A stretch of DNA of 64,000 nucleotides from Cliona cf. orientalis (Eukaryota > Porifera > Demospongiae > Clionaida > Clionaidae), in the NCBI GenBank assembly GCA_963930775.1, contig OZ005696.1:4278001-4342000 (forward strand), read 5' to 3'. Every line of letters starts with the position of its first letter. The stretch's first letter is position 1. The translations under genes and the position numbers were made by a program. The notes below the pieces were generated by a model that worked only from the letters and a program-made list of their open reading frames with translations, ran no database searches and was not told the DNA's origin. This document shows positions 5,431 to 30,936 of this stretch, in pieces.

Positions 5431-5683
5431 TGTAGTCTATCAACCTTTTCACCAGACAACCTTACCCATGCAAGTGGGTAAAGTGGGTAGAGTAGGTAAA
5501 CATTGTTTGGTGAAAAAGCATGACCAGGAGTGAGCGAGCAAAGCGAGCTCACTCCTTATAATTTTACAAATGCTTTGTGTGCATCCATTTCCTTGCTCTA
5601 AGGAAAAAGAATATCCTGTTCTTCTGATGGATCATGAATCTTATTCATAACATTCCAAGACAGGCATGTTATACACAATACAG

Positions 5684-5745
5684 GTGTGGCTCAGTGTTCT
5701 TCACTCAGCCTCTGGATCTCGTCAAGAATCGTATGCAACTTAGTG
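5684..5745 (+). CDS. Alternative helix-1 exon A of the carrier gene
   Basis: This 62-base segment begins after a tacag acceptor and ends before gtaagc. It reads CGSVFFTQPLDLVKNRMQLS plus a split glycine codon. It has the same length, the same entry phase (one base completing a codon) and the same exit phase as the exon at 6488-6549, so either can be joined to 6625 without changing the frame; including both would insert a second helix 1. Many third codon positions differ between the two while the matrix-gate motif PLDLVKNRMQLS is unchanged. That suggests an old tandem duplication kept under selection. Mutually exclusive splicing is the inference; use as the only exon, or decay, cannot be ruled out from sequence alone. 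Confidence 0.8.
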
Positions 5746-8700
5746 GTAAGCACAATGATTGCAGCATCATTGAGCTGCTGCTACCAAGTCAATATACATA
5801 GTATTGTGTATTATTTATTATTGTATAAATTATTGTAAGTTGGATCAAGTTGGACTTTTCTTATGATTGTTGCAGCACATGCGACAAGATGATCCAACCT
5901 ACTACTAGCCGTCATGTATAATGTACCGTATAGCAGGAAACTTTCGAGGGAGAAAACTTTCACAAATTTTGTGATTTTTCAGCCATCCACGAGAGTTTTC
6001 TCCACGAAATTCTGGGCATGCCACACCCATTATATGACCAGTTTTAGCATTCCGCGAAAGTTTTCTCCGCGAAATGCTCCTTTCCTACCGATTCGCGAAA
6101 GTTTTCTCCCTCAAAAATTTCCCGCTATACGGTATCTGTGTTGACTTGAAATTTATAGTGCCTTTTTGCATTGTACATTTCTCCATTACATGTGATAGAC
6201 TTTATCCAGTATGTTGCACTCCATTGGATGTGGCATCCATACTAACTATCCCATGGACTGCAAATCATCGTGATATTTTAATCGCTATGCGTATCTCTAA
6301 GCAATTACTTAAGTTTTATAAGTTTTCTACAAAATATATGCAAAGCAGGGTTTTAAATCTGTCGTTCCCGTTCATAATAGTACCCTATAGCTACCAAGTA
6401 AACAAAAAAACATTAAGCTTTATGGTTTCCTTTCCAGTAAATTTGGGTGCATTCATTAGCTGAGTTGTCATATATCATGTGATACAGAATGGGTGCCACA
6501 GTCTTTGTGCAACCACTGGATTTAGTCAAAAACCGTATGCAATTGAGTGGTAAGCAAAAGTACTATCTGACTGTAGTTACCTCAACTATTATAATAATGT
6601 TATAGTCATGTTGTTCACATTTAGGGGAAGGAGGAGCGGTGCGTCAACATAAAACCAGTTTGCATGCTATTGGTAGGGTGATCAGGGAAGAAGGTTTTCT
6701 TGGGCTCTATAATGGGTATGTTTAAGTTGTAAATTCTAAGAATATCATATTATTCTGAATATATGTGTAATAGTTTATCTGCAGGACTTCTTCGACAAGC
6801 CACTTACAGTACTACACGCCTTGGTGTGTACCAGTCATTATTTGACAAATTTTCTGGGTAAGATACATCCAACTGTAAAACTTATGATAATACTCGTTAT
6901 ACTAAGATTATATTTGTTTGTGTATCCGTACGAGTGAGAGGTAACCGAAAGCCATTCACCCCGAACTAAAAATTTTCTTGGCATTGCTGGACTTTGGATG
7001 ACAGCCCACTGATACAATTGCATGGCTATGGCCCAGCCACAACTAAAGTGAGCTGCTACAGAAGATACCAGGATACAATTAGATTGAAGTGTACAGTTAT
7101 ATATGGTGGTCTAGTGAACATAAAAGAGCAATTCCTCTGGAGTCAATGTTCTCCACAGGTGCTTTCCAGAGGGAGGTGATTCTATTCCAAACATCTTCTC
7201 TTGGGTGCCGTTGCAAACGAAGTTGCAGGACTACCAATGATTTTCTGGTTGATAGTCACAGGATTTTCATGTGCTCTATGGTGCTCGAGCAAGTTAGTAA
7301 GGTCATCAAAGAATACTCACCTGCTATAAAAGTACAGGCAGCGAGCAAGTCCATGTCCACTGTGTGTTTTGACAAGGTAGCGTCTATGTGGCCCCACAGC
7401 GACGTTGGTGCCACAAATGTCCCATAGCTTAGATCACAGGTGTTGGATTGCTACTAGGCTGCCAGTGTGGAGATCTTTTTATGGGGTGTGTACATTTATT
7501 GTAGACACGCTCAGTTTCTTTTTGAGAAGATTTCTGATGCCTTCTGCCATTCCTGTGCAAAGGAGCACCTGTGAGCTGGGAAATAATCCTGCACTGGGTG
7601 TCCAAACAAGTTTTGTGCTGGAGAAAGGCCATCTTTTTGGGATGGAGACAACTCAAATCCAGCAAAAGTTATCGCAGTTTTGCAGAATCTGAGCTTATCA
7701 CTGTTTCTTCATAGTGGCGTAGAAATTGTCAGACATGCTTAATGTGCTCTGTTTGTCTTGATGACGACATTATCGACGATCTTGTAGAAGCTCTGCATGC
7801 CAGCAATGGCCTCATCCATACATGAGTTGTAGTGCTCACTTATTAAGGATATACCATATGGGGTACGCAAGTACTTGAAACATCCAAATGGTGTTATGAC
7901 TGTTGTAAGATTCTGGTTCGCTTCGTCAAGTGGGCACTGATGGTATCCTTTTAGTGTATCCAATACTGTGAAGTACTTGGTCTAAGCTTGTGCGATATCT
8001 GCGACAGCTTCAGCTGGTGTGGTGAAGGGGTATATCTCATGCCGGACAAACTTGTTTAATTTGGATAGGTCTGTGCACATAATAACACCTCACGTTGTCC
8101 CTTTCAAATACAGGGGATATAAACTTTCAGGTGAGAACGAAGTCAGTTTACTCACCAGCTAAGGAACCATAGCCTGGAGTGATTCTTTCTTTAGATCCTA
8201 CTTGTAACAAATACTATTACAGTGATCTGATTGGTTAAATTGTAGTATCTGTCCTTCATAAAATACCTTGTAAGCCCCATAAAAAACTTTGTAAGCTCCA
8301 TAAAAAGCCTGGTATAGTTTGTTTGCCTATGGCTAGTTTGTTGCTAGACAATTATTTATAGGGCATTGTTGCTAGGACCTAAAGTAGTTAGACACTGTTT
8401 AGTCACTTTCTACATGATTTAGAAGACCTCAGGGCTCAGTAGAACCCTCACTTCGCTCAGGATTCTACACATAGCCCTTCTACATGTCTTCTAAATCACA
8501 TAGAAACCTCCTAAACAGTGTCTAACTATTATTTAGATAGTCGTCAGGTAGGATGCCTAGCATTTGTGCCACTGATCACAAGGTAATTATTCCTGAGTCT
8601 GATTCATAAATGTGGATGTCTTCTGAGGAGCATCTACCATTGAGCTTGAATGTGTGGTTGGGGATCATTTCTGTCGGGTATAGTAGGGAGCTGTTAACAG

Positions 8701-11700
8701 CTTTTGGAGTGACTGTGAGGTTGTCCATATGTTCGTTCCTAAGGGCGTGAATGAGGTATAGCCTGGTAGTGCAGATGTCCACTCCAGAGCCGGGCAATAC
8801 TTATTGGAGTGTAGCCTTTTCATCAGAGGTACTAACTTTTATTGCGATGGTGGGTTGCGGTCTTGATAGAACTGGATCGAGGTTACTTGAATAAAGTGGA
8901 ATTTGGAGGTGCTTACATGTGGTGGGTTCTATGCTCCTTGAGTGTGGCCTTTGAACTTTGCTGAAGTGGCCTATTTTCCACATTTATGGCGTGCTCGCTA
9001 ATTATTATGCTGGGCAATTCTTGTGGCCTCCATCATGTGTTTTGTCCCCACAGCCAATGCACGTGTTTACCTCAGACATAGCCTGGACGGAATATGCATC
9101 ATGTGTGTGCTTAATTTCTGCACAAGATTTGTTTGCTGCCTCCAACCCTCGATACACCTCGACAATTGGTGATAGTTTGATCCACCATGAGGTCTTTTGT
9201 TTGGAGTAGTTCTTGGATTGTGTCGCCAGTCATCAAGGAGGCCTTTGATTATCTGATCTCTGAAGGCTTTTGCACGCTGTCATTATTGTTGAAATTGCAT
9301 GTCTTAGCAAGTTTACTGAGTGACATGAGGTAACTGTACTTGCCCTATTCATAGACTGATCTATGCTCTAATTATCCAAACGGCCAAAAGTAATATTATT
9401 ATTTGTTGTAAATAGAAAGTAAAGAAATTCAGCCAATGGCTTGTTCAAGTGTGAATAGAACCAAAAAATTGTAGAAAGCACTATATTTTAACAATGAAAT
9501 ATTGGTGGTCTACAGTATACGTTTATTGTGTTGTCACTCTGCTCTCTGAGTGATCGCAAAATGATTGTACGTCAGTGTGAGTTCGTGTTACCATTCCACT
9601 CTTATATACTGTCCAAGATGATGGTAGCCACACTGATGAATTGGAAGAAATGTCTTGAGCTCCTTTCATGTATAAATGTCATGCCGTGTGGCCGTTCAAT
9701 TAATTAGAATGGGTGAGGAAACTTGAAATTCAATACATTAGATGAACTTAAACCTGCTGTTCAGGCTATTTGAATGTTCGAATAATTAGAGCGAGTATGG
9801 TAGTCATCGAACAATTCCCCACTTTGTTATTTCGTTGTCAAAGGTATCTTCGCTCTATGATTTCATTGATGCAGCCATTGACATGTGTTTTTAAGGCTAC
9901 GATGATTTGGGCCTGATCCTTTTCTGTGTGGTTGTGAGACCCAGGTTTTCTCAGTTTGGATAAGTCGATAGTACGGAATGTGTAGGTTGCCATCATTAGG
10001 TTTGAGTATTCTAATTAAAGAGTGGTTGGTAAGAGTACGGACAGCGAGGAAACAGGATGGCAGCAATGATACTAACATATTGAATAGTACACTTCACTGA
10101 TAGAACATATTAGAATAAACAAAACTTACTCAGGCTAAAACGAGCGTGATTCCAGTCCAGTTTACGTGATATAAAACTAAGCTGCTATGGCTCACCTTAG
10201 CATGCTTTAGCAGAGAATTTGTTCGAAGTAGAGTTGCTCGCTTCTTTAAAAAACAATCGAAATGGGTGTGGGTTTACCCCTGACTTCTAAAATTTCGTGC
10301 ACAAGAGTAATAACAGAATACCTTTCAAGAAATTATGTATCTTGCCACTGCTTTCTCAGTGCTTTTCTTTCACTTCCTACTGTGAGGATTACCTCAAGGT
10401 CTTGGTCGCTTGTATCTTGTATCAAAGAAGCTTGTAAGAACTCTCTCTCAATGCACTATATCCCTCGTGCTAACTCTGTATTATTTTTTGCATAATATTA
10501 GCAATTTATAATAATTATTAGTACAGAGTTATCTCACTCAACGGTATTGGGGAATCTATACTATTACTGTAGAATCCTGCGATTATGCTCCCCCCTAGTG
10601 CATAAGCCCCCCTGCATTTTTAGGTCAAGTTCCTGCATAGGTAATTTTGTCTCGCATAATATTATAAGCCCCCCCCCCCCCATCTGACTATAAAATTAAT
10701 GTAATAATATACATACCATAAGCCAAGCAAAAACAGTGACCACAACTAACAAACTAGCTATTTGTGACATATTATGCCTTACTTTGTCGTTTCTCTCGAG
10801 TTTTGCTCACCAAACAGCCACAGAAAGATGCGGAAATCTCGCACCCACGTGGCATTCGACGGACAGTAATGGTCATCACACGGAAATGTTAGGATCCCAT
10901 GTATAAGCCCCCTCCCCGCTTTTGCATGCACAAGGGGGGGGGGGGGGCGGCATAATCGCGGGATTCTATGGCATATAATCTGTTACTTGCTCTCTAATAT
11001 TGCTGTGAATGACACTTGTATGATAATTGTATTACTCAGAAATGATGGTAAGCCGCCAGGAATCTTCACCAAGATTGGAATAGGTAAGTGCACTATAGTA
11101 GACGCCAATGTTCAAGCACATGCACCTACTGCAAAATCAGGAAGAAACTACATGTATGCGCTTAAATCTTAATGTGCTTAAATATCAGTACAAAATTGAC
11201 CACATCCACATATGGATGATTAGGGGTCATCAGTACACTATATGCACATGGAGTCACAAAATTTGAGAAGGCTCGCTACAAGCAGTGACTAGAAAGAACA
11301 TGACGTGCACACATGTACTGCAGCAGACAAGCCACAGATTGCAATACATGTACATAGATAGGAGTAGATTACATAGGAGCTACAGTACAAACATAGAAAG
11401 TAGGTTGACATGGACAAATTGCAATCAAGGCTGCCATAGGCCATGCACTATCACATCTTGTACTTGAAATGGGTTTTATGTAAACACAGACGGCAGCTGT
11501 ACAACTGTATAGTGCAGCTGGTACTGTGGTGGCCTGGGTGGGACACACCCACTCTATTCACTTACATGACCTCAGATTCATTTACTTGCGTACTAGAGAC
11601 ATGCATGGCCTGTTTGGGGCGAGCCTGAGCTGAGAAAGGTTTGCTTGCCTAGCTGTAGCTGAGACCCGAAAAGCCACAGCATAGATTGTGAAGACCATGT

Positions 11701-14700
11701 ACACAGATCCAAGCATACGTCATAGTTGCCGTGACCTCAGTGCCCGTTAGCACCTTCCGCGCAGTGTCTATTCTATGCCAACAGTTAATAGCTACCGTAA
11801 TCTGGCATTGAAGTATGCGCTTGAATGCTTATAAACCCTCACTTAGTTTCATTACATCTGACCCCTTCGTGCGCATGTATATAGCAGTTGTATGGGCTAC
11901 TTGTGTGTCCTAATTCTGGTTCATAGACTTTCCTGAACTAAAATATGCATTCAAATTGCAGCATCTGGCTGAAAAGTTTCACTGGTGAAAAATTTCGTGG
12001 AATTGCATACTAACCTTTTAGAAGAAATTTTCATGTTTTCGTGGTTTTAATTTTGTGCCTTCTCCATGTCAAGACCACACTCACATTGATTGATTATGTA
12101 GTATATACAGGTGCATGTATGACATCACCCATTTAAAATTTTGCTATCAGCTAACTACATAGGTGGGTGGATAAAGTGCTTACTATAATAGTAATTCTTT
12201 CACTACTGTAGTCATAAGCCTTCTATTTTTATCAGGCATGATAGCTGGTGCGACTGGAGCATTTATTGGTACACCTGCTGAGGTGTCATTGATTCGGATG
12301 ACCTCTGATGGAAGGTTATTGTCATGGAATATAATATTTAAAATGTGCATAGTCATCACACTACAGGCTTCCTGTAGCTGAACAGAGGGGTTACAAGAGC
12401 GTCTTTGATGCCTTATTTAGGATAACAAAAGAGGAGGGACTGTTTACTTTGTGGAGGGTAACTCTAATGATTGTGAATAAGCACATTGTACATGTATGTG
12501 TGACTCTTCCTCCAGGGATGTGGTCCAACAGTTTTAAGAGCAATGGTAGTTAATGCTGCACAGCTGGGTACTTACTCTCAGGCAAAGCAGTTCCTCTTGG
12601 CAACTGGTAATCTTTTCTGATAGTTTGTTGTATTGAATCTCTATAACATTTTTTCTCTGAGTGCAGATTATTTTAGCGATAACATAAAGTGCCACTTCTC
12701 TGCGAGTATGATTAGTGGATTAGTCACAACTTTAGTATCTATGCCTGTTGACATCGCAAAAACTAGGTTAGGACCAACCAAATAAATTTTTGTGATAAGA
12801 TAATTGCTTATCTTTAACAGGATTCAGACTATGAAGACAGTGAATGGCGTTCCAGAGTATTCTGGATCTGTCGTAAGTAAAAGTTTAATTACCAGGAAGG
12901 ATCTTCCAACTGTTAATTGTTGATAACCTGCGTAGTGGCAAGGATGCCGAAAAATAACAAGCTAACATAACAAGTTGGTTTCTACGTGATTTAGAAGACC
13001 TCCTAAACAGTGTCTAATAACTTAGATCCTAGCATCAATGCCCATAGGCTTGACATATAAACTGCTGCCTAGCAACAACCCTACCCATAGGCAACAATTT
13101 TTTACAGGTTTATATGAGCTTTTTACAAGTTTATATGGGAAATAGCTTACCTGCTCCTGACCAGTCAGATAACAGTATTTGTTACGACTAGGATCTAACT
13201 AAAAGTTAGATACTGTTTAGGAGGTTTCTACACATGTACGTGATTTAGAAGACTGAAGGGCTCTATGTAGAACCCCGAGTGAAGTGAGGGTTCTACTGAG
13301 CCCTGAGGTCTTCTAAATCACGTAGAAACCAACTAAATAATGTCTAACAACTTTAGATCCTAGCAATAATGCCCATAGGCTTGATATATAAACTGCTGCC
13401 TAGCAACAATCCAAACCATAGGCAACAATAGTCAGGTATATATGAAAAATTTACAATTTTATATGTGCTTTTTACAGGTTTATATGAGAAATAGATACCT
13501 GTTCCTGACCAATCAGATAACAGTATTTGTTAACTAGGATCTAACTTAGATATAGTAATATGTCCCTTGACAAGTGCCAATGCTTGAGGTTCAATAAAGA
13601 AAACTTATTACAGTGTGGATACATGTACACATACATGTATAGTAAATTATGGCTATACGTTTATGAATGATTAGATATAGGTACCATCATGAGCATATGA
13701 GCCGCCGGCAAAGGAGCGTCCAACTACCGTAGGGTTGGCTATAACGTGTTAGGCGAAGTACTCAAGACTGCTCCTCCTTATTTGGAATGTGCAGCTGGGC
13801 AGTGCTTAGCAGATTACTTTTGTACAAACCACACTACTAGCTAATTGACTTAAGCTGTTTACTATAGGCATTAGGCATAAGGCATTTAAACCACTTTGGA
13901 AGCCAGCTTAGTTTAAGCTGGCTTAGTATAAACACTCCCTAAACAGCTTCATAAGTCGCCTTCTAAACTGGTTTGTCTGGGAGGTGGTTTGAAACCAGTT
14001 TCAAGCAGGTTTGGGATATGTTGCTATACAAACTGCATGTCCATGTATAAACGCTCCAAGCTGGCTTAAGACCGTACATGTAAACTCGATTAAAAGCCCC
14101 ATTTATACTAGACATTTAAACCACTTTGGAAGCCGGCCAGCTTACTGGCTTGGTGTAAACGTGCTAAACCACTTTACAAGTCGCTTTCTAAACCGGTTAT
14201 CTGGGAGGTGGTTTGAAACCTGATATGTTGCTATACAAACTAACTGTACCACATGTGAATGCTCTTAAGACCATGATATCAATCAAAATTACTCTCTGGA
14301 ACCTTATTGACACTTCTTTTAGTCTGTTACGTACCGGTACAAACATCGATCGTAGCAGCTACGTAGCTAACAACTGGACTAGCAGCTAGCAATTATTAGC
14401 TACTTCTTGGATACATGAGGTCAAAGGTGCGATCACATGATCATTTTGACCTTTGACCTAAAAAGTGAGCTGAAAGTCAAAAAAAGGATGCTGGCAGGTC
14501 TGAGAAACCAGTAATTTTATTACTGTGGCCTAAGGCACTTGTGTAAGCTGGAAGACCCTACGTGTAAATGCAACTAAAGCACAATTTTAGTCTAATGCAG
14601 CTTGTATGTGTAAAGAAGGCTCTAGATATCATAGAGTCAGTAGACTCTATAAGTAGGGATGGCACGGATACTCCATATATGTAATACAATACAAGTATGT

Positions 14701-17569: not shown

Positions 17570-30936
<13,367 letters not shown>

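Follow-up and report, generated by a model that had tools for sequence, protein, structure and literature searches.

Does the oxoglutarate carrier gene of Cliona cf. orientalis choose by splicing between two versions of one exon? The question is raised by two segments, called here A and B, that lie in tandem in the stretch of DNA analysed in this work (64 kb long, hereafter the window). We think that A and B are very probably functional mutually exclusive exons of an SLC25A11-type gene, derived from an old tandem duplication, as far as this can be judged from genomic sequence. The second coding exon of the gene would have been duplicated in tandem long ago, and the pre-mRNA would be spliced as 1-A-3 or 1-B-3, which would give two carriers of 324 residues differing at five of them. 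Messengers with both exons or with neither would meet an early stop and would be expected to be degraded. Both exons would be used, under a regulated choice, and the two carriers may differ in kinetics or substrate preference.

The gene lies on the + strand, with most of its exons inside the window and exon 1 outside it (Table 1). The human oxoglutarate carrier (OGC) used as tblastn query gave seven collinear matches between 5688 and 17408, with E values of 2.5e-5 or better and identity up to 80%. Exon by exon, the similarity found by tblastn is closer to OGC than to other carriers. The exon borders were set by similarity, frame and splice signals, and the resulting spliced product has 324 amino acids and a single terminal stop with either A or B. 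It carries three stretches recognized by the Pfam profile Mito_carr in the A form as in the B form, with 216.6 and 216.9 bits, respectively, against a cut-off of 22.3. The ordered OGC matches and the Mito_carr repeats bear out the identity that a previous sequence-only reading of the locus had proposed: by its similarity, this is a mitochondrial 2-oxoglutarate/malate carrier gene of SLC25A11 type, with a predicted transport function. An additional tblastn match to OGC at 17586-17624 (E 6.7) was set aside; the opposite strand holds there an 89-residue open stretch (17570-17839, - strand), about 130 bases past the carrier stop codon, which is probably the terminal part of an adjacent gene.

Table 1. 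Position in the window of the carrier exons and of the elements between exons A and B.
Feature	Position	Strand	Remarks
Exon 1	G000:C8:4277139-4277254, 747-862 bases before window position 1		ATG start; ends ...INFVLGGLAG plus two bases of the last Gly codon
Exon 2A, 62 nt	5684..5745	+	(G)CGSVFFTQPLDLVKNRMQLS(G); part of helix 1, PLDLVKNR; AG/GT borders, open frame
A-B intron, 742 nt	5746..6487	+	GT-AG; carries a dispersed inverted-repeat element
MITE-like element in the A-B intron	5914..6140 (ends approximate)		44-nt inverted arms 5924-5967/6091-6134, 89% complementary
Exon 2B, 62 nt	6488..6549	+	(G)MGATVFVQPLDLVKNRMQLS(G); part of helix 1, PLDLVKNR
Exon 3	6625..6715	+	tblastn, spliced frame
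Exon 4	6774..6857	+	tblastn, spliced frame
Exon 5	11040..11083	+	Weak tblastn match (E 4.6); frame and splice sites fit
Exon 6	12236..12314	+	tblastn, spliced frame
Exon 7	12367..12457	+	tblastn, spliced frame
Exon 8	12516..12606	+	tblastn, spliced frame
Exon 9	12667..12766	+	Spliced frame
Exon 10	12821..12872	+	Spliced frame
Exon 11, incl. stop codon	17277..17441	+	tblastn, spliced frame

Genome searches, in which the best candidates were scored, found a single OGC-like (SLC25A11-type) gene in the assembly, single copy being understood here as one found. Among the best candidates scored for the degenerate pattern QPLDLVKNRMQ in the assembly, exact matches occur in A and B alone; a match with one mismatch, considered as an OGC copy, belongs to another carrier (C7:1237k). 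The nearest relative of the gene, considered as a second OGC, looks like a separate gene of the dicarboxylate carrier (DIC) type (C7:1195k), and a second OGC gene that could have been the donor of exon A was not found in the assembly search. The assembly also holds two other carrier genes that are much alike, G000:C4:9976010-9976699 and G000:C19:3046763-3047452, with a 243-residue open frame each; their equal scores for two of three pieces suggest a recent duplication.

The two 62-base segments, 742 bases apart and with matching phases and splice sites, had been described in the sequence-only reading, and they were found again at the same coordinates. Both are preceded by CAG and end with the identical donor GTG/GTAAGC; in both, the Gly codon that exon 1 leaves incomplete is finished, and one base of a further Gly codon remains at the end. 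Of their 62 bases, 39 are identical, and the identity between the copies is 82% over a 50-nt stretch that spans the donor. Peptide B, which is identical to the human OGC in this segment, was scored over all six frames of the window: A obtains 75, against 26 for the runner-up, and 60 mononucleotide shuffles of the two introns reach at most 30. A chance likeness of A and B is excluded by this distance from the shuffles and from the rest of the window. No third copy of the exon was found in intron 1, in the A-B intron or in the intron between B and exon 3. Similar length, conserved splice sites and frame, and homology are the criteria for predicting mutually exclusive exons given in the available part of PMC3228551. 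The A/B pair fits them, with its similar length, its common splice-site type and phase, and its homology.

The reading frame gives a reason for using one exon at a time. As 62 nt does not make up whole codons, translation of a messenger that holds both exons or neither ends early and gives no carrier. When A and B are joined the frame shifts and the translation runs ...MQLSEWVPQSLCNHWI up to a stop, and when both are left out the frame also shifts and the translation runs ...GLAGGRRSGAST up to a stop. Joint inclusion and joint skipping are thus both non-productive, and a functional mRNA holds only one of the two exons, which agrees with the mutually exclusive splicing that had been deduced from the exon pair. 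Among human mutually exclusive clusters, 377 (60%) have lengths not divisible by three, according to the available part of PMC5740500.

The divergence between the two copies tells whether A has been maintained as coding sequence. In the last 13 codons, 8 of 39 bases differ and none of the 13 residues does, so that the presence in both segments of a helix-1 part with PLDLVKNR and many silent differences, as previously noticed, is confirmed. A simple neutral model of eight random changes, half of them transitions, left this peptide unchanged in 0 of 200,000 trials. Over 20 codons there are 22 base changes, with 15 residues kept and no stop, and the neutral simulation keeps a mean of 7.3 residues; at least 15 residues kept together with no stop was obtained in 0 of 50,000 trials. 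Counting over the 20 codons gives a pS of 0.81 and a pN of 0.24. The first seven codons have a pN of 0.59, and the last 13 codons have a pS of 0.75 and a pN of 0.06, a value that arises because the paths between two pairs of Leu codons cross other residues. A dS between A and B is not computable due to saturation, and synonymous sites so near saturation indicate that the duplication is old. The change of bases without change of residues over 13 codons means that A has been kept as coding sequence; these substitution patterns indicate that protein function has constrained both copies, above all at the PLDLVKNR motif.

These data bear on three other explanations of exon A. A dead duplicate kept by chance is extremely improbable, since eight base changes without replacement in 13 codons, intact borders and the lack of stops are not what such a relic would show. 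It is close to negligible that two haplotypes were placed in tandem by the assembly: the duplication itself is what speaks for such an artefact, and nothing beyond it, whereas a pS of about 0.8 is far above allelic divergence, the whole region matches the assembly full-length once, at its own locus, and outside the exons the two copies have no clear likeness in their flanks (14 of 200 shuffles match the score of the 5' flank, and 94 of 200 that of the 3' flank). A might also have a start of its own and serve as a first exon or belong to a separate transcript, and its frame is indeed open for 19 codons upstream, with Met as the third. However, A retains an acceptor AG and the exact entry phase for exon 1, exon 1 and A together give an intact helix 1, and a start upstream of A would drop the GGLAG part of this helix; we therefore consider this use of A as very improbable. 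Functional mutually exclusive exons remain for us the best explanation of the pair.

What the choice would change in the protein can be read from the five residues that differ, which fall just before PLDLVKNR in helix 1. Counted from the proline of the motif, they are, for A and B, respectively, Cys/Met at -8, Ser/Ala at -6, Val/Thr at -5, Phe/Val at -4 and Thr/Val at -2. The sequence-only reading had opposed GATVFVQ to GSVFFTQ; the difference is real, and the list was incomplete, as it missed the Cys of A versus the Met of B. The residues of A at -8 (Cys) and -2 (Thr) recur in UCP1 and UCP2, and so does that of B at -6 (Ala); at -4, the Val of B is also that of UCP1. Thus, among the five positions, UCP1 shares two with A (Cys, Thr) and two with B (Ala at -6, Val at -4), and UCP2 shares two with A and one with B. 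With the dicarboxylate carrier of this genome, A and B share one residue each, Thr at -2 and Ala at -6, respectively. In terms of these residues, A is a mixture with no clear tilt to UCP or DIC.

Position -5 presumably corresponds to Lys22 of the ADP/ATP carrier and to Asp28 of UCP1, on the cavity side, and we take positions -2 and -6 to lie close to this face. Substrates of mitochondrial carriers are contacted mainly on even-numbered helices, according to the available parts of PMC7611780 and PMC13385207, so that altered kinetics or an altered range is likelier than a new substrate class. That exon A would give the oxoglutarate carrier an altered specificity, with one gene switching by splicing between two exchange activities, seems to us rather unlikely from the residues compared. 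The idea builds on the Cys and Thr that A has in common with UCP1 and UCP2 and on the exchange at the cavity position -5. The same low chance is given to a further part of this reading, namely that the specificity switch would use the same helix as the variation of the phosphate carrier and would have been reached independently.

Regarding what might enforce the choice between A and B, three standard mechanisms were examined (short intron or distant branch point, U2/U12 incompatibility, and RNA pairing), and none of them could be shown. Steric exclusion operates when the distance from the 5' splice site to the branch point is below approximately 50 nt. The next AG upstream of the acceptor is at 20 nt for A and 23 nt for B, and the latter predicts a branch point near B; with an A-B intron of 742 nt that holds a transposon-like insertion, this kind of exclusion is unlikely. 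An incompatibility of U2 and U12 splice sites is also unlikely, as the donors of exons 1, A and B (GTGAGT, GTAAGC and GTAAGC, respectively) are ordinary GT donors and not of the U12 type. The weak polypyrimidine content before the acceptors of A and B (0.47 and 0.53) counts against the pair as functional exons, although similar tracts precede exon 4 (0.47) and exons 5 and 7 (0.53 each).

RNA pairing was evaluated by comparing duplex energies with those of 200 dinucleotide shuffles in six tests. The duplex of the B acceptor with the A-B intron has an energy of -30.8, with 6 of 200 shuffles as low in this one of six tests, and that of the A acceptor with the same intron has -28.6 (31 of 200); for the four remaining duplexes, between 35 and 141 shuffles were as strong. 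In the predicted fold of 5640-6640, bases adjacent to the A acceptor pair with 5796-5809, leaving the AG of A unpaired, and bases adjacent to the B acceptor pair with 6234-6276. There is a long imperfect complementarity between 6234-6276, in the A-B intron, and 6472-6495, at the exon B acceptor. Docking/selector pairing at A and B, modelled in six tests on this one genome, is a lead only, and by default the choice would be regulated by splicing factors.

It is conceivable that A and B are both spliced without being strictly exclusive, so that joint inclusion or double skipping is frequent, perhaps lowering carrier output via unproductive mRNA, and that the frame alone sorts the products. The 742-nt intron, the ordinary GT donors and the AG at 20 and 23 nt before the acceptors, among which no enforcing mechanism was found, are compatible with this, as are joined reads, which PMC5740500, in the available part, reports for 83 (22%) of the human clusters whose lengths are of this kind. 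We consider it quite unlikely, since selection has acted on the protein that A itself encodes, something that a pure poison exon would not require.

The closest known counterpart of the proposed mutually exclusive pair is in SLC25A3, the mitochondrial phosphate carrier, which also has alternative exons. According to the available parts of PMC7611780 and PMC7226361, its exons IIIA and IIIB give two isoforms, one of heart/muscle and one general, that differ in kinetics and expression; SLC25A3 is named among human mutually exclusive exons in that of PMC5740500, and that of PMC9579139 dates its alternative exon to before the earliest vertebrates. A mutation in its exon 3A, Gly72Glu, is placed in the translocation cavity, at position 14, by the available part of PMC7226361. 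SLC25A3 is a different carrier, and the duplication is thus presumably independent. As position 14 belongs to helix 1, both genes would vary this helix; in the gene studied here, however, the position would map to exon 1, so that the swapped segments overlap at most partly. A single helix-1 exon turned up in the 7.5 kb around the phosphate carrier gene of the present assembly.

The alternative exons of SLC25A3 are already known, and what is new here is a candidate mutually exclusive pair in an SLC25A11-type gene. No report of such exons in SLC25A11 or in the oxoglutarate carrier appeared among the literature matches listed, which comprised titles and starts of abstracts, with most subscription journals outside the scope. 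The available part of PMC13385207, on SLC25 exons (2026), contains neither "mutually exclusive" nor "SLC25A11", that of PMC7504413, on fly carriers, does not contain "mutually exclusive", and "SLC25" is absent from the main text of PMC9741552, as far as available. Should RNA confirm the pair, this gene of the malate-aspartate shuttle would be a further mitochondrial carrier in which splicing exchanges part of helix 1. Two isoforms identical but for five residues would then be a natural experiment on the role of helix 1 in kinetics and specificity, and the idea of this helix as a favoured site for the splice-tuning of carriers becomes testable.

Two other systems are useful for comparison. Exons 4a and 4b of OGDH are, according to the available part of PMC7969005, mutually exclusive twins from an ancient duplication in a gene of energy metabolism, whose exclusion depends on distant branch points, because of which the intron stays short and does not take up transposons. 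The present gene is similar in having twin exons that would be mutually exclusive, a role in energy metabolism and an old duplication; unlike OGDH, it has an A-B intron of 742 nt that holds a MITE-like element, and an AG 23 nt before the B acceptor. Docking/selector clusters of Dscam1 type pick one exon from tandem homologues, as is proposed for A and B, but here there are two exons only and the pairing of the acceptors with the A-B intron is weak evidence (31/200 for A and 6/200 for B, in six tests).

The MITE-like element has at least 39 other copies at 91-94% identity (40 candidates scored), and a 1121-base query that included it gave 1706 first-look candidates in the assembly. Judged by divergence, its insertion is probably much younger than the exon duplication. 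Introns 4 and 10 share, by eye, a similar stretch at about 8410-8540 and about 12980-13050 (tagaagacct..., cagtgtctaa...), which is probably a dispersed repeat.
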